A program made the position numbers and the translations under genes. From Prochlorococcus sp. AG-418-G23 (GTDB taxonomy: Bacteria > Cyanobacteriota > Cyanobacteriia > PCC-6307 > Cyanobiaceae), in NCBI GenBank assembly GCA_003214195.1, contig QCLY01000009.1:1-42943 (forward strand): DNA of 42,943 nucleotides. Reading direction: 5' to 3'. Below the pieces are notes generated by a model. The model saw only the letters and a list, made by a program, of their open reading frames with translations. It did no database searches and had not been told where the DNA came from. This document shows positions 36,942-41,530 of the stretch, one piece after another. Each line of letters opens with the position of its first letter. The stretch's first letter is position 1.

Positions 36942-37445
36942 AATATCTCATTTCCTTCTTTCAGGATATAAAATTACATATTTTAAGTCTATTTACTCAT
37001 AAACCTTGAATACGTGAATTCGGGGATTTCTCTCGATAATTTTTGTTCCTATTGTCGCTAGTAATTATAAAGCGAAGTCTTATCAGACTAATTGATTGAA
37101 CTTTAATTTTCGAATAATCCCATGCTCAGGAATACGCTTCCTATATTTTGGAATTTGCTAAATTTCAGGCGGACTATCAATCATTTAGATTGCCTCCGAA
37201 CTCAACATTTTTAAATTACTCCTTTTTCTATATTCAGTAAATCCGTAAAAATGCTGATTTACTTTTTTCTTGATTTATAAGATGATTTTAATGACCCTTT
37301 GTTTTTTAGATAAATAAATACAAATATATTATTAACCTCTTAGTTTAGTTAAAGCAAATATATAAATTTGTTGCCTCTATATTGTTATAGTATTCTTAAT
37401 TATTTTTTATATAGAAATTTAACCAATAAATTTTTAATAATAATT
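36942..37445. other. Gene-poor stretch ahead of a membrane microprotein
   Basis: About 500 bp without a convincing ORF on either strand; ORFs there are under 12 codons. The part from 37000 to 37200 is visibly less AT-rich than ordinary spacers here. Because the strong terminator at 36912-36941 can end minus-strand transcription, a non-coding RNA on the minus strand is possible. I see no known RNA motif. Confidence 0.4.
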
Positions 37446-40613: not shown

Positions 40614-41036
40614 TTAGTATAATTTTTCTTTTTGTCTACTTTTTTTCAACTCTCCACGTTTTCTCTTAAACTCAACTCTTTTCTTTTGTGATGCTTTAGT
40701 AGGTTTTGTAGATTTTCTAAATTTAAATGGTTTATTTAAGCCATCTTTTATGATTGAACTAAATTTCATTAAGGCTAGCTGCCTATTTAGTAATTGATTT
40801 CTATGTTCTTGAACCACTAAACATATAGTATTTTTTACTAATTTTTTTTTCAAATTATTCTTAAGAATTGCTTTTTGATAATCATTTAGGACTTTTGAAT
40901 CTTCTAAATTAAAAATAATCTCTACTCTACTTTCAATTTTATTTACATTCTGCCCTCCAGGACCTGAGGATCTGGAAAACCGCCACTTAATTTCGTTGGA
41001 TGGTATTACTAATTTTTTAGTAATTTTTAAATCCAT
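40614..41036 (-). CDS. arfB: Alternative ribosome-rescue factor ArfB (GGQ peptidyl-tRNA hydrolase)
   Basis: A 140-residue RF-1-domain protein without a codon-recognition domain. It enters the empty mRNA channel of stalled ribosomes and hydrolyses peptidyl-tRNA. The catalytic GGQ lies in RSSGPGGQNVNKIESRVEI (about residues 22-40). The C-terminus is long and Lys/Arg-rich (about 105-140: KPTKASQKKRVEFKRKRGELKKS), the tail that binds the mRNA tunnel. The length is normal. Confidence 0.95.
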   Translation of the reverse strand: MDLKITKKLVIPSNEIKWRFSRSSGPGGQNVNKIESRVEIIFNLEDSKVLNDYQKAILKNNLKKKLVKNTICLVVQEHRNQLLNRQLALMKFSSIIKDGLNKPFKFRKSTKPTKASQKKRVEFKRKRGELKKSRQKEKLY

Positions 41037-41108
41037 TTTTAGTTATTCTTAATTTAGAATTTTTTAATTATCACTCTAATACTTTAAAACATACCTGAAA
41101 ATAAGGTC

Positions 41109-41183
41109 GGTAAATACTGGGCGGTTATGTTAGGCAAACCGAAATTCGGTGTAGTTGCCGTATCAAAATCTTCGGTATTTATC
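41109..41183 (+). ncRNA. Putative structured RNA / 5' regulatory element
   Basis: An outer stem pairs 41109-41119 (GGTAAATACTG) with 41173-41183 (CGGTATTTATC), 11 pairs including two wobbles. Inside, GGCAA (41133-41137) pairs with TTGCC (41155-41159), and ACCG (41138-41141) pairs with CGGT (41147-41150) around an AAATT loop. CGGTT (41122-41126) could instead pair with AACCG (41137-41141), which excludes the ACCG/CGGT hairpin. The core is GC-rich in a very AT-rich spacer. It lies 57 nt before the 78-residue gene. I recognise no known riboswitch or Yfr RNA motif. Confidence 0.5.
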
Positions 41184-41240
41184 CTTTCATATTAAAAAAA
41201 ATTATTAGATATTGGATTTGTACTAATTCAAAGGTCAGTT

Positions 41241-41477
41241 ATGTATTCAATGTTTGATCTTCTTTTTGAAACACCTTCATATCGCCCAGTATATGTAATT
41301 TCTGATAGTGAAATGAAGGAGCTAAAGAAAACCCAACATCAAGAAGAACTTGATGAAATTACAACACAAAAAGTAAGACTTGAAGATGCGTTTAAAGCTC
41401 AACTAAAACATCTTGAAGAGAGAGAAAAAGAAGTAAAGAAAGAACTTAAAGCACTATCAGCCTCAAAAAATAAATAA
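41241..41477 (+). CDS. Small coiled-coil protein
   Basis: A 78-residue protein. Residues 1-22 form a conserved-looking head (MYSMFDLLFETPSYRPVYVI). The rest is a highly charged coiled coil (about 24-75, with KKTQHQEELDEITTQKV and HLEEREKEVKKELKAL). No membrane helix is seen. I do not recognise the family. It has a private transcription-unit look, with a structured element 57 nt upstream and a strong terminator 28 bp downstream. GC content and codon choice are higher than the local average, which suggests good expression. Confidence 0.75.
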   Translation: MYSMFDLLFETPSYRPVYVISDSEMKELKKTQHQEELDEITTQKVRLEDAFKAQLKHLEEREKEVKKELKALSASKNK

Positions 41478-41504
41478 TTTATTTTTAGAGAAATGACTTT
41501 TTTG

Positions 41505-41530
41505 AAAGACGGTTTTATACCGTCTTTTTT
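41505..41530 (+). terminator. Rho-independent terminator of the coiled-coil gene
   Basis: AAAGACGGT (41505-41513) pairs with ACCGTCTTT (41519-41527) around TTTAT and is followed by a T run. It lies 28 bp after the stop at 41477. Confidence 0.88.

Follow-up and report, generated by a model that had tools for sequence, protein, structure and literature searches.

The conserved intergenic element that precedes the gene of a 78-residue coiled-coil protein in Prochlorococcus sp. AG-418-G23 is probably a DNA operator and not an RNA switch, most likely read by Rre1 and driving the coiled-coil gene. It was found in a stretch of 42,943 nt of contig QCLY01000009.1, which was analysed as a whole and is hereafter called the window. 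By comparing sequences, we infer the binding of Rre1, the identity of the regulator, the stress signal, the position of the promoter and the function of the protein, and the following mechanism can be proposed. Four CGGT half-sites (A and D on the plus strand, B and C on the minus strand; Table 1) would sit just upstream of the promoter of the 78-residue gene. Under heat or redox stress a response regulator of the LuxR/NarL type, most likely Rre1 (its kinases in other cyanobacteria being Hik2/Hik34), would become phosphorylated, and its dimers would occupy the four half-sites, recruit the polymerase and activate transcription, the coiled-coil protein building up together with GroES/EL. The same array would drive hspA, encoding an Hsp20 protein, in the Synechococcus-type relatives and, in Prochlorococcus, where hspA is missing, small coiled-coil proteins present in 1-3 copies per genome.

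Table 1. Features at the four-box element and around it, in window positions.
Feature	Position	Strand	Basis or remark
Four-box element, proposed DNA operator (feature core)	41108..41176	+	near-gapless in 57 promoters; model R1; fixed spacing
Box A, CGGT	41108..41111	+	sequence, alignment
Extra CGGT copy	41122..41125	+	main Prochlorococcus (window-genus) type and some others; missing in many
Box B, ACCG (CGGT on the minus strand)	41138..41141	-	GTNCGGK exact at B in 20/30 hspA loci
Extra CGGT opposite box B, forming the palindrome ACCGAAATTCGGT	41147..41150	+	sequence, alignment
Box C, GCCG in the window (ACCG in most copies)	41157..41160	-	alignment
Box D, CGGT	41173..41176	+	sequence, alignment
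TTTGTACTAATTCAAAGG block 5' of the start codon, conserved among window-genus copies	41217..41234	+	ribosome-binding site, possibly putative -10 region
78-residue coiled-coil protein gene, proposed regulated gene	41241..41477	+	ORF; AlphaFold2 model
Terminator-like hairpin with T tail, 3' of the 78-residue gene	41504..41528	+	
Divergent neighbour gene, RF-1 domain (PF00472)	40614..41036	-	starts 71 nt from box A

The element is housed in the 204-nt gap between the RF-1-domain gene and the 78-residue ORF. An initial annotation, based on the letters of the window, had described at 41109-41183 a GC-richer island standing 57 nt before a short gene with its own terminator, and these observations were all confirmed: the GC content is 41%, compared to 31% for the window, the distance to the ORF is 57 nt, and a terminator-like hairpin follows the gene. 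The neighbouring RF-1-domain gene, of the ribosome-rescue type, could share the operator at the window locus; no RF-1-domain neighbour was noted beside the paralogs inspected. A sigma-70 scan revealed no promoter near the 78-residue gene, the number of sites being not above that of shuffles.

To describe the element across relatives, the stretches upstream of the family genes were collected. DNA of the element was present in 76 of 149 relatives, all of the window's genus; the ORF was found in 191 relatives in the scanned contigs, 80 loci being kept, and its nearest named relatives are named Prochlorococcus (records L031-L110). Within the order, 195 of 399 genomes (21 of 44 genera) encode a member of the protein family, with 1-3 matches per genome in 35/35 re-searched relatives; the matches in G153, G173 and G234 were weak and had no like element alongside. 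Within the window's genus the gene is not universal, three genomes (G168, G216 and G243; 99% completeness) being without it, and in some of its genomes a diverged additional copy (L159-L166) comes with an element of its own. A usable upstream stretch was available for 239 of the 244 loci with a family match; these gave 179 distinct sequences and 62 clusters at 92%. Alignment A1 comprises 57 of the 62 representatives, since L155, L156, L157, L240 and L242 had no recognisable element, and in all 57 the box architecture is near-gapless. The box columns are (nearly) invariant, reading CGGT at A, ACCG at B, ACCG or GCCG at C and CGGT at D, with centre-to-centre spacings of 19 bp for B-C, 15 bp for C-D and 28-31 bp for A-B. 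Eight rows (L119, L120, L167, L218, L219, L236, L237 and L239) did not fit a relaxed spacing pattern, and the box statistics given below were computed on the remaining 49 of the 57.

The element is closely tied to the gene family. A sequence-only model without base pairs, R1, was built solely from Prochlorococcus promoters, with no hspA in the training, and was searched in genomes that we labelled Prochlorococcus-type or Synechococcus-type according to genome size, genus grouping and gene content. In 21 Prochlorococcus-type genomes R1 gave 39 hits at E ≤ 1e-15, and all 39 lay upstream of a match to the family gene, which in one case (L235) contained internal stop codons. Two weaker hits (L282 and L284) corresponded to decayed gene copies with decayed boxes. 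In G022, the gene at the usual locus (L284, at 353 kb) has decayed together with its element and a diverged copy stands elsewhere (L119, at 1.09 Mb); this pattern is one of turnover by replacement. In the larger genome G234 one R1 hit preceded a different gene, coding for an Hsp20.

The association with Hsp20 was general in the Synechococcus-type relatives. Among the 271 genomes of the taxonomic family with at least 90% completeness, 162 had an R1 hit (111 Prochlorococcus-type and 51 Synechococcus-type); 32 of the 51 Synechococcus-type hits were located, and each of them (32/32) was on the same strand as an Hsp20 domain match and 153-198 nt 5' of it. Hsp20 was found in 51/51 of the Synechococcus-type genomes bearing the element and in 1/111 of the Prochlorococcus-type ones, the remaining 110 having no Hsp20. 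The exception, G329, probably reflects a cyanophage contig or a provirus in a single-cell assembly, as its Hsp20 (L366, on G329:C3) has a T4-like DNA polymerase gene as its neighbour and bears the cyanophage signature described in the accessible part of PMC3827213, and was thus regarded as a phage gene. The same source, in that part, had called the lack of a small heat-shock protein in 13 Prochlorococcus genomes surprising in 2013. In the hspA loci that were fetched, four boxes with the same B-C and C-D spacing were present in 30/30, and each locus (30/30) had the strict four-box pattern once, at the element, with no further occurrence in 184,418 bases, both strands counted. With stricter filters, R1 matched nothing at E ≤ 0.01 in 92 of the 144 genomes having Hsp20, and 17 of the 271 genomes had neither Hsp20 nor an R1 match. 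The Synechococcus-type hspA/Hsp20 promoters are thus like the element of the window in having the same four boxes at spacings of 19 (B-C) and 15 (C-D), but they drive an alpha-crystallin protein, whereas the Prochlorococcus element precedes a coiled coil. Since the array stands before hspA in the relatives and before the coiled-coil gene in Prochlorococcus devoid of hspA, the 78-residue gene probably belongs to the proteostasis regulon, and the multicopy coiled-coil protein may stand in for HspA.

As for the regulator, Rre1 is presented in the accessible text of a review (PMC13421787) as a chaperone-gene activator of the LuxR/NarL type, with 5'-GTNCGGK-3' as the proposed motif; that of PMC13232611 gives GTnCGG as the minimal motif, with hsp20 among the genes having sites, and groES, groEL, dnaK2 and htpG are assigned to the regulon in these texts. 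Rre1 is also reported to be conserved in all sequenced cyanobacteria, its phosphorylation accompanying the accumulation of the hspA transcript (PMC9321951, in the portion available). Exact GTNCGGK was found in 41 of 120 boxes of the hspA promoters (9 at A, 20 at B, 11 at C and 1 at D, of 30 each) and in 4 of 196 boxes of the Prochlorococcus family promoters, where NTNCGGT accounts for 141/196. In the groES promoters, the block GTTCGG[TC]CA[AC]CCGCAC was present in 12/12 genomes, the window's own among them, and at least one exact GTNCGGK was found in each of the 12. In the genome of the window (G000, incomplete), one GerE protein was found, a 242-residue receiver + GerE regulator with 74% identity over 231 residues to its Synechococcus-type counterpart; the orthologues in the other Prochlorococcus-type genomes searched are 76-95% identical to it, and it was called Rre1-like by architecture and literature. 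Taken together, these data make Rre1 the favoured candidate. Like the Rre1 sites of the Hik34/Hik2-Rre1 heat-stress regulon (Kobayashi 2017 as cited in the accessible parts of PMC13421787 and PMC13232611), the array has boxes with a CGG core, stands upstream of hspA-type genes, the core being found before groES as well, and occurs in a genome encoding an Rre1-like regulator. Unlike them, the window-type element combines four boxes at set distances, the gene behind it codes for an uncharacterised coiled coil, and most Prochlorococcus boxes have lost the flanking G of the GTNCGGK motif.

The rarity of the exact motif in Prochlorococcus speaks for an operator recognised not by Rre1 but by PedR or some other DNA-binding protein whose half-site is CGGT. 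The Prochlorococcus-type genomes searched carry a second GerE protein (two GerE matches in 6 of 8, three in G212, one in G000), which in G015, a genome that we take to be MED4, is PedR (136.8 bits compared to an NCBIfam cut-off of 120). However, the array precedes hspA in the relatives and its core precedes groES, and both are Rre1 targets according to the partial texts cited above; we therefore regard another regulator as unlikely.

In the initial annotation the element had been read as switch-like, either a new cis-regulator or a free small RNA, and a structured RNA leader of the 78-residue gene (riboswitch, thermometer or attenuator) had to be weighed against the operator, small heat-shock genes being classic sites of RNA thermometers. 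The proposed stem and hairpin are real: the MFE fold of 41109-41183 is made of a closing stem, with 13 pairs in a row, G-U pairs among them, where the annotation had counted 11 bp, and of the inner hairpin GGCAA-ACCG/CGGT-TTGCC. Its energy was -26.8 kcal/mol (z -5.3) and none of 200 dinucleotide shuffles was as good, so that the stem-loop is more than chance; z was -4.0 with flanks and -2.5 on the other strand. The competing pairing of CGGTT (41122-41126) with AACCG (41137-41141) is also present in the sequence; however, these mutually exclusive pairings, which had been taken as the mark of riboswitches and regulatory leaders, arise because one short box recurs in both orientations. In line with the annotation, which had matched the element to no class, no Rfam family reached its threshold at the element, with either gathering or relaxed settings (up to E = 10).

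Across the family, pairing did not exceed the level of shuffles. Over the 57 promoters, the 29 pairs of the annotated fold form in 46.6% of the cells versus 46.1% with partners shuffled, and the pairing of A with B plus C with D in 86.9% versus 87.3%, with a covariation score of 0.065, below the shuffled 0.069; the high percentage of the latter is due to the conservation of the boxes, as the shuffles equal it. The pairing of B with D was likewise at shuffle level, and the RNAalifold consensus over the family promoters retained 4 pairs at -2.8 kcal/mol. A phylogeny-aware covariation test on 169 distinct sequences found no pair at E < 1 (lowest E 1.2). As its global alignment misplaced part of the A-B loop, the test was repeated on 148 distinct anchored gapless sequences, including 30 hspA loci, and again gave no pair at E < 1 (lowest E 6.7). 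Compensatory stem changes across strains, the lack of which had been named in the annotation as refuting its own reading, were not found, save for one copy: L237 has changed at two matching positions of boxes C and D (ACCAAA/TTTGGT in place of ACCGAA/TTCGGT), as RNA pairing would give. With regard to stability, 28 of the 57 family elements have z < -2 and 7 have z < -3 (mean -1.8); the window is an outlier, with the second-lowest z of the 57, and the 30 hspA elements fold weakly (mean -1.3; 2/30 below -3). On the grounds of Rfam, consensus folding, the pair counts of three structures, the two covariation tests and the family-wide z, a riboswitch or leader RNA was rejected as the main reading, and we consider it improbable, slightly more so than an operator bound by a different regulator. 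Of the first description, the guess of a cis-regulator is supported, in the form of a conserved element ahead of the 78-residue gene; the RNA switch is not, the structure not being conserved.

That the element gives rise to a free small RNA is very improbable: the known Prochlorococcus RNA pair Yfr8/9 does lie in the neighbourhood (Rfam RF02360, matched full-length with 252 bits at 36981-37206 of the window), and the element resembles the Yfr ncRNAs in being intergenic, in its AT-rich hosts and in a stable predicted fold, but its fold is not conserved, it goes one-to-one with the downstream gene in the genomes checked and with Hsp20 in the relatives, and the 14 ncRNAs listed in Table 1 of PMC2518516, the part of that paper available for comparison, do not include it, their locations excluding 333.9-334.1 kb of G015.

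For the gene product, AlphaFold2, run with 20 sequences, predicted a short helix (residues 4-9) and a long one (22-77), with a mean pLDDT of 84 and a pTM of 0.46. The window protein had no above-threshold match in Pfam or NCBIfam, and none to the alpha-crystallin domain of Hsp20 (PF00011); a profile search of the PDB gave weak coiled-coil matches (best E 0.17) and Foldseek against the PDB no match at E ≤ 0.001. It did match PHROG 22044, a family without assigned function, at E 3.3e-8, its residues 1-76 aligning to positions 1-75 of the 84 in the profile. Relatives are carried by the podoviruses 9515-10a, P-SSP6 and NATL2A-133 (5 records), with 38% identity over 79 residues to the family member L198 and, for the 9515-10a homolog, 32% over 76 residues to the window protein. 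The podovirus genes (L367 and L368, 2501-2755) stand directly after hli, psbA and gp222. They belong to the same protein family as the 78-residue protein, but in 9515-10a the gene starts 2 nt after gp222, in the psbA cluster, leaving no room for the element. The family gene was also found at four loci on three IMG/VR viral contigs; two nearly identical copies (L156 and L158) lie about 81 kb apart on one 106-kb contig, a duplication due to end redundancy or to an assembly artefact. A viral origin of the element was discarded, as the exact core pattern is missing from the viral contigs and the 3 IMG/VR records tested had no R1 match.

The comparison with Hsp20 small heat-shock proteins (PF00011) has two sides. 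Both are small proteins behind the same array with relatives carried by cyanophages, but no sequence relation was found, and the 78-residue protein is modelled as one long helix and not as a beta-sandwich. T4-like cyanophages carry Hsp20 genes, as reported in the accessible part of PMC3827213, and the carriage of the 78-residue family by podoviruses, by analogy, would support a role in stress. We can only tentatively suggest, as a rather doubtful scenario, that Prochlorococcus lost hspA and placed an unrelated coiled-coil protein, in 1-3 copies, behind the same Rre1 operator, giving the most abundant of phototrophs an alpha-crystallin-free small heat-shock protein (holdase or membrane-stress protein) that Prochlorococcus podoviruses also carry next to psbA and hli, as T4-like cyanophages do Hsp20.

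If the operator reading is true, it provides a concrete candidate for the replacement of the missing Prochlorococcus small heat-shock protein, together with a candidate regulator, and a stress-inducible promoter with which heat or redox stress could be tracked in ocean populations. The reading would also account for a conserved intergenic element that resembles a riboswitch without being one. The operator itself is a variation on known sites; the true novelty would lie in the coiled-coil protein, should it prove to be a substitute for HspA. Among the papers listed for Prochlorococcus with Rre1, heat shock or hspA/hsp20, no title or abstract opening describes the operator or the gene. Of the MED4 locus tags near the gene, PMM0345-PMM0350 gave no paper and PMED4_036/037 one, the Steglich paper.

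Some further sequence features were observed around the boxes. L240 and L242, from G153 and G173, encode a distant relative of the protein in genomes without Hsp20 and without an R1 element; upstream there are two exact GTNCGGK boxes (-121 and -54), and one reading frame is also open across this stretch. Several hspA loci, among them L305, have an extra inverted repeat between boxes A and B (e.g. CACGAC-N6-GTCGTG), in varying register, which may represent further half-sites. Finally, in L087, L100 and their relatives a perfect inverted repeat, CTTACAA...TTTGTAAG, directly follows box D; it is confined to one clade and does not occur in the window's type.
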